Positions 5,898 through 15,731 of a stretch of DNA of 64,000 nucleotides are shown here, in pieces (positions within the stretch are counted from its first letter, which is position 1; the number at the start of each line of letters is the position of its first letter). The position numbers were made by a program, and so were the translations under genes. The notes beneath the pieces were generated by a model. It was not told where the DNA came from and ran no database searches. It saw nothing but the letters and a program-made list of their open reading frames with translations. This stretch comes from an uncultured Spartobacteria bacterium (GTDB lineage: Bacteria > Verrucomicrobiota > Verrucomicrobiia > Chthoniobacterales > Chthoniobacteraceae): assembly GCA_903901425.1 (NCBI GenBank), contig CAIURC010000214.1:62001-126000 (forward strand). The letters run 5' to 3'.

Positions 5898-6794
5898 ATG
5901 CAACCACCAGTTCGCTCCTGGCTCCAACTTATCCGCGCCCCCAACCTCTTCACGGTCGGCGGCGACCCTCTGGCTGGCTTTTTTCTCGCCAACTTCGGGA
6001 TCCCAACCCACGAAGCGCTCTTTCCCATCCTCGCTAGCTTCTGTCTCTACGCGGCGGGCCTCGTGGACAACGATCTGGCCGATTACCAGGAGGACCTCAG
6101 AGACCGCCCTAGTCGGCCGCTCCCCAGCGGAGCCATTGCACCAGCCACTGCCCGCGCCGTGGCCGCCCTCCTCACAGTGGCAGCCCTTGGATTGAGCGCA
6201 GCGGCAGGACTCAATTGCTTCCTGACGGCCTCCGCTCTGGTGCTCACCGTCGCTGCCTACAACCATTTCCTCAAGGCCATCCCGGTGCTCGGTCCCCTCT
6301 CCATGGGCCTCTGCCGCGGACTCAGCCTCCTCGCGGGGGCCGCAGCGGCGCCGGCCTCCGTTTTTCCCACGGAAGTCTTCCTCGCCGCAACGGGCTTGAC
6401 GCTCTGGATCGCCGGCGTCACCCACCTTGCCCGACACGAAACACTCCGCGTGCTTCCGCCTTCCGCTCGCTTTGCCCCAATCGCAGGACTTCTGTTCCTT
6501 CTGGGCTCCACTCTGGCTTGGGGCAGAATGGGCACTCCGTTTTGGGATCAGATCGGCGCTCACTCCCTCAAGGTGCTCGTTGGGACCGCCTTGGTCATCG
6601 GACTCCTCAACTGCCTGAGCATCCGCGAAGGCACTCCTGTACCCCCCCGGATTGGGAAACTCATCCGGTTGCTCCTGCCCATCCAGGCAGGATTTTGCGC
6701 GTCCACGGGCCTTTTTGGGATTCTGGCCGGCCTCCTCCTTCTGGCCCTCTGGCCGTTGAGCCAGCGCGTCAGCCGGTCCTTCTATGCAAGCTGA
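5898..6794 (+). CDS. eboC: EboC-like UbiA-family prenyltransferase
   Basis: This is a polytopic membrane protein of the UbiA superfamily, 298 residues with about eight hydrophobic segments. The first aspartate motif is intact (Asn58, Asp59, Asp62, Asp66 in NDLADYQED), followed by RPSRPLPSG. The second aspartate-rich motif of classical UbiA enzymes is not evident. Instead there is a THLARHE segment, which I associate with the EboC subgroup. Known ebo clusters are implicated in moving natural-product precursors to the periplasm, for example in scytonemin synthesis. The neighbours eboF, eboD and eboE support the assignment. The ATG at 5898 has a C-rich leader and no clear ribosome binding site. 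Confidence 0.8.
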   Translation: MQPPVRSWLQLIRAPNLFTVGGDPLAGFFLANFGIPTHEALFPILASFCLYAAGLVDNDLADYQEDLRDRPSRPLPSGAIAPATARAVAALLTVAALGLSAAAGLNCFLTASALVLTVAAYNHFLKAIPVLGPLSMGLCRGLSLLAGAAAAPASVFPTEVFLAATGLTLWIAGVTHLARHETLRVLPPSARFAPIAGLLFLLGSTLAWGRMGTPFWDQIGAHSLKVLVGTALVIGLLNCLSIREGTPVPPRIGKLIRLLLPIQAGFCASTGLFGILAGLLLLALWPLSQRVSRSFYAS

Positions 6795-6929
6795 CCGCCA
6801 GAGTTTGCACATGCACCGCCCCAAAATCCCGCTCCTGCATCGCCCTTAGACAAAATTTCCTTCCCCGTTTCCCACGCTCGCCATCTACAAATTTCGTGGT
6901 TTCTTTCTCCCACCAACTCTTTCTTTCCC

Positions 6930-8210
6930 GTGGCCACGCCTAAAAAACTCCTCGTCATTGATGTCGCTGCCCTCGGCTGGAATCTGGTCAAGGACCTGCC
7001 CGAGTTCCGGTCCGCCACCACTTTTTTCCCCGCAGTCACCAGCGTTTTCCAAGCCGGGTTCCGCACCGCAGCCGACGCCGGCCAGCACGGACTGGTGGCC
7101 AACGGCCTGTTTTTCAAGGACCTGAGGAAGGTTCTTTTTTGGGAACAATCCGCCGCCCTGGTGGAGGGACCCCGGATCTGGGACCAGTTCCGGGCCAAGG
7201 GGGGCACGGTGGGCATGATGTTCTGGCAGCAGAGCATGGGCGAACCGGTGGACCTCGTGGTCACCCCCGCGCCCATCCACAAACACAGCGGCGGCATGAT
7301 CCAAGCCTGTTACACCCAGCCCGCCTCGCTCGAACAACGCCTCACCGAAGCCGTTGGACGCCCGTTCAACCTCATGAACTACTGGGGTCCCCTGGCCAAC
7401 CACAAATCCAGCGACTGGATCGTGGATGCCACCTGTGCCGTTCTCGGCATGCCGGACCTCGCCCCGGACCTTCTCCTCACCTACATCCCCCACCTCGATT
7501 ACGATCTCCAACGCTTCGGCCCCAACTCCGCCGCCGCCCGCAAAGCCCTCGACCTGCTCCTCGGCTACCTCACCCGGCTCAAAGCCGCCTGCTCCGAAAA
7601 CGGCTACGACTGGCTCATCGTAGGCGATTACGCCATCGAACCCGTCCAGCGCGGCGCCATCTTCCCCAACCGCGCCCTCCGCGATGCCGGACTCTTCCAA
7701 GTCCGCGACATCCGGAAAATGGATTACACCGACTTTTTTACCAGCACCGCCTTTGCCGTGGTGGACCACCAGATCGCCCATGTCTACTGCCGCGATTCCG
7801 CAGCCACCACCAAGGCAGCCGACGTACTTTCCAAACTCCCAGGCGTTGCTGAGGTCCTCACCCGTGAGTACCAGAAAAACCGCGGACTCCTTCACCCGCG
7901 CAGCGGCGAACTCCTCATCGTTGCCGAACCCGGCGCATGGTTTGCCTACCCGTGGTTCGAAAAATCGCATGCCCCGGATTACGCCAGCCACGTCGATATC
8001 CACAACAAACCCGGGTACGACCCCTGCGAACTCTTCTTCGGATGGCCCCCGCTCTCCGTCAGTTTTGACACCCGCAAAATCCACGGGTCCCACGGAAGCA
8101 CGGCGCCGGGCTACGAAATTGCATGGTCCACGTCGCTCCCCCTCGACTCCCAGCCCGCATCGGCCATGGATCTGGCCCGTCTGACCCGGGCATGGCTCGA
8201 TGCCCGCTGA
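6930..8210 (+). CDS. eboF: EboF-like alkaline phosphatase / nucleotide pyrophosphatase family protein
   Basis: This 426-residue member of the type I phosphodiesterase/nucleotide pyrophosphatase fold has an N-terminal LLVID metal-site strand. It also has the FPAVTS nucleophile region followed by GQHGLVANG. The usual later metal motifs are altered: the normal D-x-x-x-H segment reads PHLDYDLQRFGP, and the usual SDHG reads GDYA. Catalysis may therefore be changed or lost. No signal peptide is seen. The start is GTG at 6930; no ATG gives a better N-terminus. It overlaps eboD by 11 bases if that gene starts at 8200. Its role in the ebo pathway is unknown. Confidence 0.75.
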   Translation: MATPKKLLVIDVAALGWNLVKDLPEFRSATTFFPAVTSVFQAGFRTAADAGQHGLVANGLFFKDLRKVLFWEQSAALVEGPRIWDQFRAKGGTVGMMFWQQSMGEPVDLVVTPAPIHKHSGGMIQACYTQPASLEQRLTEAVGRPFNLMNYWGPLANHKSSDWIVDATCAVLGMPDLAPDLLLTYIPHLDYDLQRFGPNSAAARKALDLLLGYLTRLKAACSENGYDWLIVGDYAIEPVQRGAIFPNRALRDAGLFQVRDIRKMDYTDFFTSTAFAVVDHQIAHVYCRDSAATTKAADVLSKLPGVAEVLTREYQKNRGLLHPRSGELLIVAEPGAWFAYPWFEKSHAPDYASHVDIHNKPGYDPCELFFGWPPLSVSFDTRKIHGSHGSTAPGYEIAWSTSLPLDSQPASAMDLARLTRAWLDAR

Positions 8211-9411
8211 CCCCCTTCTCCCCATGTCCGCCGCTCCTGCCCCCCACGTTGTTCGCCAGCAAATCACGGTGCACTGGGATTTCCCGGTCGCCTTCACGCA
8301 CCACCTGTTTGCCCCAGAAAACCCGCTTCTGCGCGACACCCTGCAGCGCCTCGGCGAGGCCCGGAAACACCGCGCCATGGTGTTTCTGGATTCGCACGTC
8401 GCCAATGCCCGGCCAACACTGTCCGAAGACATCTTGGCCTATTTCAAAGCCCATGCGGACCACCTCGAACTGGCGCTCTCCCCACAACTCGTCCCGGGCG
8501 GCGAAGCGTCCAAAAACGACTTCTCCCTCGTGGAAGGATTCATGCGGCTCCTGCTTGAAAACCGCATGGACCGCCAGTCGTATGTCCTCATCATCGGCGG
8601 CGGCGCAGTCATGGATTCGGTGGGACTTGCTGCCGCCCTGGTCCACCGTGGCCTGCGTCAGATCCGGGTTCCCACCACAGTCCTCGGACAGAACGACGCC
8701 GGCGTAGGAGTCAAAAACGCCGTGAATTTTCTGGGGGGCAAAAACGCCATCGGTACGTTCGCACCGCCCTTTGCCGTGCTCAACGATTTCCAGTTCCTCG
8801 CCAGCCTCGGATCCCGGGACTGGCTCTGCGGGGTCGCGGAAGCCTTCAAAGTCGCGATCATCCGCGACGAACCGTTCTTTGAGTGGCTCTGCCAGAACGC
8901 AGCGCTGTTTCCCGCCAGAAACTTTGAGGCGATGCAATACTTGGTCCAACGCTGCGCTGAACTGCACCTCGAACACATCCGGACCAATGGCGACCCCTTC
9001 GAGTACGGACGGGCAAGGCCCCTGGACTTCGGCCACTGGTCCGCACACAAACTCGAACTGCTCTCCCAGTTCCGCATTTCCCACGGAGAAGCAGTCGCTT
9101 CCGGCGTACTATTGGACTCCATCTACGCCCATAGCCAGAACTGGATCTCGGCCGCGCAACTCGAAGCCATTGCACGCGGCCTCCAACAGAGCGGATTCCA
9201 ACTCTGGTTCGAGGAACTCGACGCCCGCTCCCCAGACGGCCAGCGCCTCGTTTTTGCCGGACTGCGCGACTTCCAAGAACACCTCGGCGGCGAACTCTGC
9301 GTCACGTTCCCGGCCGGGATCGGCTCCCGGCACGAGGTCAATGAAATCGACCTTGCAAGAATGGAGTCCGCCATTCAGGAACTCAGGAAGCGCGTTCACC
9401 CCGGCTCTTGA
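8200..9411 (+). CDS. eboD: EboD-like 3-dehydroquinate synthase family protein
   Basis: This 403-residue protein has the sugar-phosphate cyclase fold of 3-dehydroquinate synthase. It has GGGAVMDSVG for NAD binding, RVPTTVLGQNDAGVG, and VKNAVNFLGGKN. The metal-site Glu214 sits in AEAFK, with His residues in SAHKLE and SHGEAV. EboD proteins form a clade apart from the shikimate-pathway AroB, and the true substrate is not established. The ATG at 8200 lies inside the end of eboF; a second ATG at 8224 is also possible. Its stop overlaps the longest possible reading of eboE, which indicates tight translational packing. Confidence 0.85.
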   Translation: MPADPLLPMSAAPAPHVVRQQITVHWDFPVAFTHHLFAPENPLLRDTLQRLGEARKHRAMVFLDSHVANARPTLSEDILAYFKAHADHLELALSPQLVPGGEASKNDFSLVEGFMRLLLENRMDRQSYVLIIGGGAVMDSVGLAAALVHRGLRQIRVPTTVLGQNDAGVGVKNAVNFLGGKNAIGTFAPPFAVLNDFQFLASLGSRDWLCGVAEAFKVAIIRDEPFFEWLCQNAALFPARNFEAMQYLVQRCAELHLEHIRTNGDPFEYGRARPLDFGHWSAHKLELLSQFRISHGEAVASGVLLDSIYAHSQNWISAAQLEAIARGLQQSGFQLWFEELDARSPDGQRLVFAGLRDFQEHLGGELCVTFPAGIGSRHEVNEIDLARMESAIQELRKRVHPGS

Positions 9412-9455
9412 CCCCGGGGTCAGCGCCCTTTGGAACTCCCGAACGCCCGCCCGCG

Positions 9456-10652
9456 ATGATCCTTCAGCACCGCCCCCCTCTCCATCTCACCTACTGCCTG
9501 AACATTCATCCCGGCGAATCCTGGGCCGAAAACTTTGCGGCCATTCAGGAAAAAGCCCTTGCAGTCAAAAAATCCGTGGCCGCAGACCAATGGTTTGGGC
9601 TGGGGCTCCGACTTTCCCAGACTGCCGCCTCACAACTCGCCTCGACCCCGGATCTGATCGAGGAGGCCCGCTCCTTTTTTGCGGACCAACAACTCTACCC
9701 GTTCTCTGTCAACGCGTTCCCCTTTGGCAGTTTCCACGGGACCACCGTCAAGGAATCGGTTTACCATCCCGACTGGCGCACCCAGGAACGACTCCAGTAC
9801 ACCCTCCAAGTCGCTGACGTTTTCTCCCACTTTCTCCCGACGGAAGTGGATGGATCCATCTCCACGGTGCCAGGCTCTTTCAAGCCATGGATTCAGTCCG
9901 ACGCCGACCGGTCCCTGATCGCGAAAAACCTTGGCACGGCCGTTGCCTACCTGGCTGCCCTCCGCGAGGACACCGGCCAGGAAATTCATCTCGGCATTGA
10001 ACCCGAACCGGATTGCCTCCTCGAAACCACCGAGGAAACCGTCGAGTTTTACAAAAAGTTCTGCCTTGCCGATGGCTGTGCCGAGATCGTCCGAATCTTG
10101 GGCTGCTCCGAATCCCAAGCCGAAGAAATGCTCCGCCGCCATCTGGGCGTCTGCTTCGACACCTGCCACGTTGCACTCCAGTTCGAAAACCTCGCCGATT
10201 CCTACCGCACCTACGTTTCCGAGGGGATCCGGATCTCCAAGGTCCAGTTGAGCGCCGCGCTCAAGGGCCGCTGCGCCCCGGCCACGCTCGATGCGCTCCG
10301 GCCTTTTGCCGAACCCACCTACCTCCACCAGACCAAGGTCCAGACCGAGACTGGCGCGTTCATCTCCTGGTACGACCTCCCGCATGCCCTCCAGGAAATC
10401 CCGTCCTTCCCCACTGCCAAGGAGCTCCGGGTCCATTTCCATGTCCCGCTCTTCCTCAATTCCGCGGGTGCGCTCGAATCCACCGCCTCGGAACTGACCC
10501 CTGACTTCTTTAACGAACTGCGCAAGGGGCACTGTTCGCACTTGGAGATTGAAACCTACACCTTTGGCGTGCTTCCGGCCGATTTGGCGACGGAATCCGT
10601 CGCGCAAAGCATCGCACGGGAATACCACTGGGTGCTGGGCCGGCTGGAATAG
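9456..10652 (+). CDS. eboE: EboE-like TIM-barrel protein (sugar isomerase/epimerase family)
   Basis: This is the 'metabolite traffic' protein of ebo clusters, with the AP-endonuclease-2/xylose-isomerase TIM-barrel fold. It opens with HLTYCLNIHPGESW, which is characteristic of EboE. Likely metal ligands are in LGIEPEP, VCFDTCH, HFHVP and LEIETYT. I chose the ATG at 9456 because the family N-terminus begins almost immediately after it; the frame is open back to a TTG at 9408 that overlaps the eboD stop. Substrate and reaction are unknown for the family. It is the last recognised ebo gene here; the permease 228 bases downstream may be a separate unit. Confidence 0.85.
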   Translation: MILQHRPPLHLTYCLNIHPGESWAENFAAIQEKALAVKKSVAADQWFGLGLRLSQTAASQLASTPDLIEEARSFFADQQLYPFSVNAFPFGSFHGTTVKESVYHPDWRTQERLQYTLQVADVFSHFLPTEVDGSISTVPGSFKPWIQSDADRSLIAKNLGTAVAYLAALREDTGQEIHLGIEPEPDCLLETTEETVEFYKKFCLADGCAEIVRILGCSESQAEEMLRRHLGVCFDTCHVALQFENLADSYRTYVSEGIRISKVQLSAALKGRCAPATLDALRPFAEPTYLHQTKVQTETGAFISWYDLPHALQEIPSFPTAKELRVHFHVPLFLNSAGALESTASELTPDFFNELRKGHCSHLEIETYTFGVLPADLATESVAQSIAREYHWVLGRLE

Positions 10653-12892: not shown

Positions 12893-12947
12893 GCACACGG
12901 CTCGGCGCGATCCATTTCATCGGAATCGGGACGTGCCGCCAAATCCC

Positions 12948-12961
12948 ACTACATTTGTAGT
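12948..12961. promoter_or_regulatory. BlaI/MecI-type operator 1
   Basis: The palindrome ACTACA-TT-TGTAGT matches the TACA/TGTA operator type known for BlaI and MecI repressors. It lies about 41 bases before the repressor ATG. Its centre is 25 bases from that of operator 2. Confidence 0.8.
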
Positions 12962-12971
12962 TGCCTCAATT

Positions 12972-12987
12972 CACTACACATGTAGTG
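12972..12987. promoter_or_regulatory. BlaI/MecI-type operator 2
   Basis: The 16-base dyad CACTACA-CA-TGTAGTG carries the same TACA/TGTA core as operator 1. It ends 8 bases before the repressor ATG. A possible promoter, TTGCCT (12961-12966) with TAGTGT (12983-12988), places the -35 just after operator 1 and the -10 across operator 2. Repressor binding would then block RNA polymerase. Confidence 0.85.
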
Positions 12988-12995
12988 TTCTGCTC

Positions 12996-13373
12996 ATGCC
13001 CGCTCCTGACATCTCCGAATCCGAGTGGATCCTCATGGAAGCTCTCTGGGATTCCGCTCCAAAAACCGCCTCCGAACTCACCCGCCAACTTGCCCCGTCC
13101 ACCCACTGGGCAGAAAACACGGTGCGCACCCTGCTTGGACGCCTCGTCGAAAAGGGCGCCCTCGCGGTGGGTGAAAACCAATCCGGCACCCGCACCTACC
13201 AACCCGCGGTCTCCAGGGAGACTTGCGTCAAATCGGAGGGCGATTCCTTTCTCCAACGGGTGTTCCGCGGAGCAGCCAAGCCGCTTCTGATGCACTTTGC
13301 CCAAGGCACCAAGCTCAGCCCGGAAGACGTCCGGGAACTCAAAAAGCTGCTGGATCAATCCCTCAAGTCCTAA
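12996..13373 (+). CDS. BlaI/MecI/CopY-family transcriptional repressor
   Basis: This 125-residue winged-helix repressor starts ISESEWILMEALW and carries the recognition region ENTVRTLLGRLVEKGAL, typical of BlaI/MecI. A C-terminal dimerisation helix follows. BlaI proteins are cleaved after signalling by a membrane M56 peptidase, and the next gene encodes such a protein 6 bases downstream. I chose the ATG at 12996 rather than the frame opening at 12933 because the longer version would place both operators inside the coding sequence. The operators imply autoregulation of the pair. The inducing signal is unknown and need not be a beta-lactam, since no beta-lactamase gene is near. Confidence 0.9.
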   Translation: MPAPDISESEWILMEALWDSAPKTASELTRQLAPSTHWAENTVRTLLGRLVEKGALAVGENQSGTRTYQPAVSRETCVKSEGDSFLQRVFRGAAKPLLMHFAQGTKLSPEDVRELKKLLDQSLKS

Positions 13374-13379
13374 CCCGCC

Positions 13380-15731
13380 ATGCCCTCCCTAGACTCCATC
13401 CACGCCTGGGTGCTCGCAGGCAGTCTGCGTGCATCCCTTCTGACACTCATCATCCTTGGATTACAGTTTCTCCTGCGCAAACACCTCAGCGCCCGGTGGC
13501 GCCATGGGCTCTGGCTTCCGGCCCTCATCGTACTCATCCTGCCTGCCTCCACTCAGAGCCGGTGGAGCCCAGCCTCGATTCTTGTGAAGGCAGCGCCCAC
13601 GCCACCCGCGCTCCGCCCCAGCGCTCCCGTGCAGGAGATCCCAGTCGCCCCGATCACCACCCCACTCAGGCAAACCGCACCCATCCCCTGGAAACGCCTA
13701 GGCGTCGCCCTCTGGGCTTGCGGCGCTCTCGGGCTCGGCGTCTTGAGCCTCCTCATCTTCCGACTTCGCCTCCGCACCCTGCTGCGGCTGCCTCAACCGA
13801 CTCCCCCCGAGCTCACCGCCCGGATCTCGGATCTGGCGCGGGAAGCCGGACTCAAACAGCCGCCCCGCATCTGCATCACCCCTGCTGTGGATGGCCCGGC
13901 CGTGTGCGGCCTCTGGAACCCCACCCTGCTCCTGCCTCCCCAGTTTGCCGCACAACTGGACACCACCGAGACTGGCTTGGTCCTCCGCCACGAGTTGCTC
14001 CACCTCCGCAGAGGCGACCTTTGGCTGCACGCCCTCCTCTGGACCCTTCTCGCCATCCACTGGTTCAATCCGGTGCTCTGGCTCGCATTCTTCCGGGTCC
14101 GCATGGACCGCGAGGCTGCCTGTGACGCCGATGTCCTCCGCGACGCCACACCCGAACACCGGGTCGCGTACGGTCATGCCCTGCTCAAACTGGAGTCTGA
14201 ATCCCCCGGACCCGGCCTCTGCCTCGGCTTCGTTGGAATCGTCCAGCGCGGCACCTCACTCCGATCCCGCCTCGAACTCATCGCTTTCCCCACCCAAACC
14301 CCAATCCCCATGAAAACCCTGCTACTGGCCGTTTCCACGGCTCTCACCTTCCTCGGCGTTACCAAGGCTGCCGACACTCCCCAGAAATCCACTGGCTCAG
14401 GCTTTGCTGCAGCCTCCCCTGCCATCTCGGTAGAATCGGTGTTCTATCAGATCCCTGAGGACTCCATTCCCGCAGACCTGCGGGCTATTGCCGGGCCCGA
14501 AACATTGTCCGGCCCATTTTCTCAAGAGCAGCTCCAGAAGCTCACGGCAATTCTCCAAAAAACGGCCGATGTCCTCTCCGCCCCACGGGTAGTTACGCGC
14601 CTTGCACAGACAGCCACAATTGAGATCATGCAGGACACCGTGATCGGAAACAAAACCGAGCCCCTGGGCGTCCGGCTCTCGGTCACCCCCAAAATGCCTG
14701 AAGTGCCGTTTGGAAAAGAGCCGGTAATCGAACTGGATTTGCAGCCCTCGGTTAGGAGCCTCGACGAAAGCTCCACCCCACCAAAAGTTCTGGAACAATC
14801 CACCCATATCTCGACCCGGATTGGAAATCACCACGCCGTGCTGATCGGTCTCGGCACGCGAAAAGACAAGGTGACACGGGAGGAAAAGTCCGGGACCTAC
14901 TTCTCGAGGAAAACCTCCACCGTTGCCTACCGGACCCTAGTCGCCATCACTGCGACCGCAGTGAACGCAGACGGAACCCCGCATTCCTTTTCTCCGTCCA
15001 TTGAGGAGAAACTCGATTCCATCGTCATCCCCCAGGTGGAATTCAAGGACGCAACCCCAGCCGAAGCGGTGCAGTACTTGCGTGAGGTCAGCCGCAAACT
15101 GGACCCCTCATCCCCAGCCGAACAACGCGGCGTGAATATTGTCCTGAATCTGGACAAACAGAGAGCAGAACAACCCGCGATCACCATGAGTCTCCGGGCG
15201 GTTCCCCTGCGCGCAGTCCTCAGGTACGTCGCTTATCTCTCCGGGGCCCAGGCCGAGGTCACCCCGCATGCAGTCCTGCTTGGAAACACCCCGCCCAGAG
15301 AGGCAAAGAGCCCAGCCGTCGAAGTCACGGCAAATGAAATCGAATCCGCTTCTGGAAAAACCATTGCGAAAGGGAACGTCTCAGTACAGACCCCCTCGGG
15401 CACGTTCAAAGGAGCCGAAATCGAGTTCACACCGTCCGCTAAAAAATCTCCCGCCCCCACCCTGGGAGGCGACATCCTCCTGCCCATTGTCGACTTCCGC
15501 GACGCGACCTTGGAGGAAGCACTTGAGTTCATCCGACAAAAGTCGCGCCAACTCGACCCTGCCGGGCGGGGAGCTCAGATCTTGATCCAAGGCAGCCCAA
15601 GGACCACACCCATCACCCTTTCGCTCCGGAACGTCCCGGTTTCCGCGGCGCTCCGCTACGTGGCGCAACTCTGCGCCATGGAACTTGTCGCCGACCCGCA
15701 GGGCTTTGTTTTGCGCGATCTGAAGCGCTGA
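13380..15731 (+). CDS. BlaR1/M56-like metallopeptidase fused to secretin-like, STN-like and LptA-like segments
   Basis: This 783-residue membrane sensor-peptidase has two N-terminal helices, then a zinc peptidase domain. Its HELLH motif (His204, Glu205, His208) and Glu245 in DREAACD form an intact M56 site. A further helix lies at about 311-330. The tail is not the penicillin-binding sensor of BlaR1. Residues about 375-520 contain VLSAPRVVTRLAQTATIEI and a late HHAVLIGLG, which resembles a degenerate secretin core. Residues 545-637 and 698-782 are two related STN-like repeats (VEFKDAT/VDFRDAT, then a conserved LRYVA). Between them, about 646-683 resembles the LptA/OstA strand repeat (VTANEIESASGKTIAKGNV). 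The family of the peptidase is clear; what the tail senses is inference. Confidence 0.85.
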   Translation: MPSLDSIHAWVLAGSLRASLLTLIILGLQFLLRKHLSARWRHGLWLPALIVLILPASTQSRWSPASILVKAAPTPPALRPSAPVQEIPVAPITTPLRQTAPIPWKRLGVALWACGALGLGVLSLLIFRLRLRTLLRLPQPTPPELTARISDLAREAGLKQPPRICITPAVDGPAVCGLWNPTLLLPPQFAAQLDTTETGLVLRHELLHLRRGDLWLHALLWTLLAIHWFNPVLWLAFFRVRMDREAACDADVLRDATPEHRVAYGHALLKLESESPGPGLCLGFVGIVQRGTSLRSRLELIAFPTQTPIPMKTLLLAVSTALTFLGVTKAADTPQKSTGSGFAAASPAISVESVFYQIPEDSIPADLRAIAGPETLSGPFSQEQLQKLTAILQKTADVLSAPRVVTRLAQTATIEIMQDTVIGNKTEPLGVRLSVTPKMPEVPFGKEPVIELDLQPSVRSLDESSTPPKVLEQSTHISTRIGNHHAVLIGLGTRKDKVTREEKSGTYFSRKTSTVAYRTLVAITATAVNADGTPHSFSPSIEEKLDSIVIPQVEFKDATPAEAVQYLREVSRKLDPSSPAEQRGVNIVLNLDKQRAEQPAITMSLRAVPLRAVLRYVAYLSGAQAEVTPHAVLLGNTPPREAKSPAVEVTANEIESASGKTIAKGNVSVQTPSGTFKGAEIEFTPSAKKSPAPTLGGDILLPIVDFRDATLEEALEFIRQKSRQLDPAGRGAQILIQGSPRTTPITLSLRNVPVSAALRYVAQLCAMELVADPQGFVLRDLKR

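Follow-up and report, generated by a model that had tools for sequence, protein, structure and literature searches.

An M56 receptor of the BlaR1 family with a secretin- and STN-like tail beside a BlaI repressor in a Spartobacteria genome

The blaI-receptor operon

The window, the whole 64,000-nucleotide stretch of Spartobacteria DNA analysed here, carries an operon in which a blaI repressor gene directly precedes the gene for an M56 receptor with a long periplasmic tail (Table 1). A genome-wide check found this receptor to be the sole M56 protein of the source genome, where blaI is single-copy as well. Unrelated genes flank the operon, with no genes for pili or secretion among its neighbours. 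Upstream, a probable ebo (metabolite traffic) cluster occupies window positions 5898-10652, comprising a UbiA-like prenyltransferase (5898-6794) and a phosphodiesterase-like protein (6930-8210), both named by eye from their translations, a 3-dehydroquinate-synthase-like protein (8200-9411) and EboE (NF035939, 1.6e-127).

Table 1. Features of the blaI-receptor operon in window coordinates; residue numbers refer to the receptor.
Feature	Position	Strand	Evidence or remark
BlaI-type operator O1, ACTACATTTGTAGT	12948..12961	.	perfect palindrome arms
BlaI-type operator O2, ACTACACATGTAGT	12973..12986	.	perfect; ~10 bp ahead of the blaI start codon
blaI, Penicillinase_R repressor	12996..13373	+	Pfam PF03965, 1.5e-29; ATG at 12996
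M56 receptor with secretin/STN tail	13380..15731	+	783 aa
Peptidase_M56 domain, residues 11-301	13410..14282	+	Pfam PF05569, E = 3e-54; membrane-embedded zinc protease
HELLH zinc site, H204-E205-x-x-H208	13989..14003	+	invariant columns in the M56 alignment
Further zinc ligand, E245	14112-14114	+	invariant in the M56 alignment
Last transmembrane helix, signal-peptide-like, residues 311-331	14310..14372	+	MKTLLLAVSTALTFLGVTKA then AD
Mini-secretin core, residues about 346-527	14415..14960	+	NF042912, 2e-4 alone; without VPxLGDIPxxGxLF
STN/N0-like domain 1 (STN1), residues about 543-632	15006..15275	+	NF042912, 3.9e-22 alone
Possible LptA/OstA-like strand hairpin (weak), residues about 641-685	15300..15434	+	strand pair predicted, low confidence
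STN/N0-like domain 2 (STN2), residues about 697-776	15468..15707	+	NF042912, 2.2e-16 alone; model pLDDT 84.5

The protease half of the receptor scores 184.6 bits against Peptidase_M56 (curated cut-off 31), which makes it a member of family M56 (BlaR1). All four catalytic-site residues listed in Table 1 are invariant across the aligned M56 relatives, and an earlier sequence-only reading of the window was right both in the gene coordinates it gave and in placing an intact M56 site at these residues. A profile built from the M56 alignment retrieves the cryo-EM structures of S. aureus BlaR1 (8exp) at 7e-28, with HELLH aligned over HEYAH. The NCBIfam model NF000326 matches residues 18-274 only, at 106 bits versus a cut-off of 400, and neither Pfam nor NCBIfam finds a transpeptidase or penicillin-binding domain in the protein. 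Judged by the defining sensor domain of such receptors, and on its predicted domain content, it is not a beta-lactam receptor.

The product of blaI, whose listed open reading frame begins farther upstream with a GTG at 12933, matches the MecI/BlaI structures 1sd6 and 1sd4 (E = 5e-12 to 6e-11). Combined with its Pfam assignment, this bears out the BlaI-like repressor previously proposed next to the receptor. The two operators, spaced 25 bp, are of the TACA-NN-TGTA type, and together with the adjacent Penicillinase_R repressor they form at the promoter region the arrangement by which BlaI/MecI systems are recognised. In relatives the pair is kept at the same position, often with a mismatch in one copy, and several relatives have a TTGAC-like -35 element between the two operators. 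By sequence, the receptor is an M56 family member of the BlaI-controlled kind. Like BlaR1/MecR1 (MEROPS M56) and BlaI/MecI, the system combines the M56 zinc site with an adjacent repressor and its operators, and the last helix carries a signal-peptidase-like site ahead of the sensor; it differs in bearing a secretin core and STN domains where those receptors have a penicillin-binding sensor, and in having operators, by scans of the draft genome, on its own operon only.

A tail of secretin and STN domains

The tail is matched in three stretches by NCBIfam NF042912 (E = 6e-43), the model for Amuc_1098-type pilus secretins; in Akkermansia, Amuc_1098 itself is the secretin of the type IV pili (PMC4960237). 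The full-length score of 146.9 bits, set against an equivalog cut-off of 750, denotes homology at the domain level only, and the source genome has its own Amuc_1098 orthologue on contig C174, which scores 871.7 bits and exceeds the family cut-off. The tail runs in the order secretin core, STN1, possible hairpin, STN2. Against Pfam Secretin (PF00263) the receptor reaches 6.5e-5 and 23.0-27.1 bits, below the curated cut-off of 27.5; the cores of relatives pass it at 39-64 bits, so the weaker score reflects divergence and not chance. Identity to the same relatives is about 26% over the core versus 46-48% over the M56 part, the core diverging faster.

An AlphaFold model of the full tail, built from five sequences, has a mean pLDDT of 46 and is best over the secretin core (up to 78 in ten-residue blocks); given this low confidence, it does not establish the arrangement or packing of the domains. 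With the core model as query, the best 31 Foldseek matches comprise nothing but secretins and complexes that contain them, and 28 secretin chains rank first in VIA-align (Z 7.5-10.3). The secretin-core-like segment that had been read after residue 330 is thus upheld.

In secretins, the VPxLGDIPxxGxLF stretch is generally regarded as necessary for insertion in the outer membrane. In an alignment to the C174 orthologue, in which two fused sequences, L143 and L201, do not extend far enough for the end of the core to be judged, the M56-fused cores are without the VPLLGDLPMVGRLF-type stretch of this region; the insert preceding it is shortened or absent, and the last strand is kept in most. The stretch is retained by the C174 orthologue and by the stand-alone secretin-like proteins C39 and C103 of the same genome. 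Because the region is missing here, as in the M56-fused cores of relatives, the core of the receptor is probably no outer-membrane pore, and by this signature region it is not a full secretin. Compared with Amuc_1098/PilQ secretins, the core and STN/N0 domains remain recognisably of the Amuc_1098 family, but their order is reversed, with the core ahead of the STN domains, and the core is tethered to the inner membrane and fused to a protease. The source genome also encodes a stand-alone protein (L149 6283-8001, G000 contig C5) composed of a mini-secretin, an LptA-like hairpin and an STN domain, with a signal-peptide-like start and no M56 domain; its signature stretch is lost.

STN1 and STN2 are clearly related to one another by sequence comparison. 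The Pfam STN model finds them weakly (0.026, under its cut-off), whereas NF042912 detects each alone (Table 1). The closest structural matches to the STN2 model are the STN parts of the anti-sigma factor BDI_1681 (Z 9.3) and of PupR (Z 8.7), and the N0 domain of PilQ (Z 8.2); comparisons with PupR, PilQ, XcpQ and FpvA (Z 7.7-8.7) indicate an STN/N0 fold. BDI_1681 and PupR, both regulators of cell-surface signalling, match STN2 no less well than the N0 domains of secretins do. These data confirm the two related STN-like repeats of the sequence-only reading. Phage and injection-system baseplate proteins share the arrangement and match the model at Z 7-8, so the fold by itself does not give function. 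A protein of ~153 aa that is hardly more than one STN domain (L086 1450-1911, G000 contig C47) has 47% identity to STN2.

The LptA/OstA-like repeat suggested between the STN domains is found at the proposed position, but its assignment is weak: the LptA family (PF03968) matches neither the receptor nor the isolated hairpin segment. A profile of two paralogous hairpins ranks this spot first in the window, yet E is only about 0.2-0.4. Among the relatives, only the equivalent hairpin of L145 passes Pfam LptD_N (23.0 versus 20.4 bits), and most fusion relatives have no hairpin. The segment shares with LptA/LptD_N (OstA) a short strand hairpin with an A-x-GNV-x-V motif and differs from them in being a single hairpin that falls under every cut-off. 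A sensor of lipopolysaccharide transport was considered and rejected, the hairpin being too weak and not conserved.

Regulon and recurrence across Verrucomicrobiota

Scans of the 5.1-Mb source genome with the operator pattern at up to one mismatch returned 2 sites, both before blaI. The operator core TACANNTGTA occurs at 4 sites, and the 2 outside the operon lie within coding sequence; two-mismatch sites number 15, fewer than the 85 of a reversed-pattern control, a comparison of counts only. A wider BlaI regulon was rejected, as scans allowing 0, 1 or 2 mismatches, or using the core alone, turned up no other site convincingly placed in a promoter, and the regulon looks narrower than the sequence-only reading had assumed. 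Because this draft genome is 96% complete, a BlaI target may have been missed, and weaker sites could also function. The Amuc_1098 cluster of the source genome has no BlaI operator, so the pilus is not visibly regulated by this system.

The strict operator is also confined to the blaI-M56 locus in G002, G006, G057 and two Verrucomicrobium genomes, and so is the different operator of the second fusion lineage (G012/G018), TGCTAAA-WW-TTTAGCA. The sister of the window's M56 group, G036, has a tail that is not secretin-like. Its operators precede a gene for an OMP_b-brl outer-membrane beta-barrel (L147, sites 2781/2807) and, on another contig, one for an FGE-sulfatase-domain protein (L213, site 2853); strict-form operators are missing at its own blaI. 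From these envelope-type genes it follows that BlaI systems of the window's branch may control envelope proteins. In G025 the operator TGTTAA-WWWW-TTAACA (from L144) has 10 perfect sites versus 0 in the control; they lie in or near unrelated genes, many inside genes, and with no theme among them a regulon was not accepted.

The survey covered 180 Verrucomicrobiota genomes, of which 97 were relatives and 87 were sampled across the phylum, four belonging to both sets. They yielded 68 M56 proteins above the Pfam cut-off, and all 68 loci were scanned with custom profiles. A mini-secretin and/or STN tail is present on 15 of these proteins, from 13 of the 180 genomes, one of the tails being weak (L201) and one belonging to a broken copy (L138). 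Culturable strains with the fusion include Verrucomicrobium sp. BvORR106 and BvORR034. BlaI lies within the fetched stretch at 64/68 M56 loci and at 13 of the 15 with such tails; the two exceptions are the broken copy and a locus that begins at a contig end. Fusions of this kind thus recur beside BlaI, as the sequence-only reading proposed to check. Homologues without a secretin/STN tail are nonetheless the rule (53/68), which that reading had named as grounds for doubt, along with an unalignable tail or missing folds; the tail aligns well, occurs on at least two lineages and has the predicted secretin and STN folds. No M56-secretin/STN fusion was found described in the open-access literature, in agreement with the earlier remark that no description of the combination was known.

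Tail composition is variable, with modules gained or lost between close relatives. Besides the core+STN+hairpin+STN order of the window, we found core+STN+STN (L135), core+STN+STN+hairpin (L141), core+hairpin (L145), core only (L137, L139, L002, L003), STN+STN with an apparent frameshift (L136) and toroid+STN+STN (L144). Other verrucomicrobial M56 tails carry transpeptidase, CarboxypepD_reg, AhpC/TSA, ankyrin, HEAT or terpene-cyclase-like toroid domains. In the M56 tree, where several single long branches remain unplaced, the window's group (7 rows, 100/98) stands far from the group of L141, L145, L182 and L144 (98/99). Joining the two secretin-tailed groups, which were named after the tree had been viewed, is rejected by an AU test (p = 0.002), and with it a single origin of their tails. 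The two groups also use different operators. M56 receptors have therefore gained the secretin/STN tail, by acquisition or by exchange, on no fewer than two occasions.

Several individual loci deserve mention. L144 (G025) joins a squalene-cyclase-like alpha toroid to two STN domains; L138 3175-4689 (G006 contig C124) is a second M56-mini-secretin copy with an in-frame stop and no HExxH; and the M56-STN-STN relative L004/L136 (G001) is interrupted within STN1 by an apparent frameshift, which may be genuine or an artefact of the assembly.

What the receptor may sense

In BlaR1 an extracellular domain senses and the M56 domain cuts BlaI (PMC9834060). PupR binds to the STN-type signalling domain that an outer-membrane transducer carries, and does so with its all-beta juxta-membrane part and its C-terminal STN domain together (PMC7186176). 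The receptor described here shares with FecR/PupR anti-sigma regulators a place in the inner membrane and a layout in which a C-terminal STN domain follows an all-beta part. It differs in output, an M56 protease and BlaI in place of an ECF sigma factor, and its locus has no ECF sigma or TonB-dependent transducer gene alongside, so that the likeness would be one of mechanism and STN fold only.

It is probably the condition of the cell envelope, and not antibiotics, that the receptor monitors. With the BlaR1 chassis kept and a tail resembling that of PupR, we consider the likeliest signal to be contact of the tail with an STN/secretin protein of the outer membrane or periplasm, read out by cleavage of BlaI on the receptor's own operon, though we hold this reading tentatively, at somewhat less than even. 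Modules derived from a pilus-type secretin would have replaced the penicillin-binding sensor; the mini-secretin would adjoin the membrane and the STN domains extend into the periplasm. We infer that these STN domains could touch, in a PupR-like manner, the STN/N0 or secretin parts of a partner, for which the pilus secretin on contig C174 and the stand-alone mini-secretin protein are candidates. Altered contact would activate the M56 domain, BlaI would be cut, and the derepressed operon would supply more receptor and more tail. Against the contact reading stand the lack of pilus or secretion genes next to the operon and of the operator in the Amuc_1098 cluster, as well as the fast divergence of the core and the coming and going of modules, which would not be expected of a receptor tied to a single conserved partner. 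The narrower version, in which the protease reads assembly of the Amuc_1098-type pilus secretin through homotypic STN/secretin-core contacts and derepresses its own operon by proteolysis, appears rather unlikely. The sequence-only reading had suggested sensing of an outer-membrane secretion or lipid-transport assembly: the secretion or pilus part is plausible through the FecR/PupR precedent, and the lipid-transport part lacks specific support.

A contact signal has to be weighed against a generic ligand receptor, in which the secretin and STN pieces would be a scaffold for a soluble ligand (a peptidoglycan or glycan fragment, a metal or a lipid) with no link to an outer-membrane machine. The diversity of verrucomicrobial M56 tails and the variation of modules among close relatives speak for such a scaffold, but the same core and STN set on separate M56 lineages is still recognisable as Amuc_1098 family, which suggests that its secretin origin matters; we regard this explanation as a serious contender that is nonetheless on the unlikely side. 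Alternatively the tail itself could be the output, freed by signal peptidase or made from Met311, with BlaI setting its amount. In S. aureus BlaR1, signal peptidase can shed the sensor by cutting the linker after the last helix (PMC9834060), and the corresponding helix here is signal-peptide-like, with a Met-Lys-Thr/Ser motif and a TKA/TRA end (TKA at about residue 330 in the receptor) conserved in the window's clade. The apparent confinement of operators to the blaI-receptor operon and the C5 protein of like make-up, with its signal-peptide-like start, also fit. Against this stand the absence of a ribosome-binding site ahead of Met311, the lack of the conserved Met in the last helix of the second fusion lineage, and the fact that autoregulation by itself is common among repressor operons; we judge a self-supplied tail distinctly unlikely.

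A protease whose main substrates are proteins other than BlaI, and whose level BlaI only tunes, would agree with the failure of genome scans to find further BlaI targets, but is improbable given that BlaI adjoins M56 at nearly all surveyed loci, the classic pairing for repressor cleavage. An ordinary beta-lactam sensor is the least credible reading, to the point of being nearly dismissible: M56 and BlaI do make up a BlaR1/BlaI pair, and transpeptidase-tailed M56 proteins exist in the phylum, yet Pfam and NCBIfam detect no transpeptidase or penicillin-binding domain in this receptor, and the genome scans revealed no second gene under operator control.

BlaR1-type receptors have mostly been studied as antibiotic sensors; in the operon described here, components of an outer-membrane channel are mounted on that protease-repressor chassis. 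Secretin parts occur in two or more M56 lineages, which suggests that M56 receptors contribute more broadly to envelope sensing. Were the contact reading true, the Amuc_1098-type pilus secretin, abundant in Verrucomicrobiota, would be tied to a signalling route. As a compact two-gene system with its own promoter as reporter, the operon offers a test of M56 sensing beyond beta-lactams. Elsewhere in the phylum, the M56 receptors L160 (G073) and L189 (G161), with penicillin-binding transpeptidase tails by Pfam, and L148 (G057), with one assigned by eye, are possibly true beta-lactam or cell-wall sensors.
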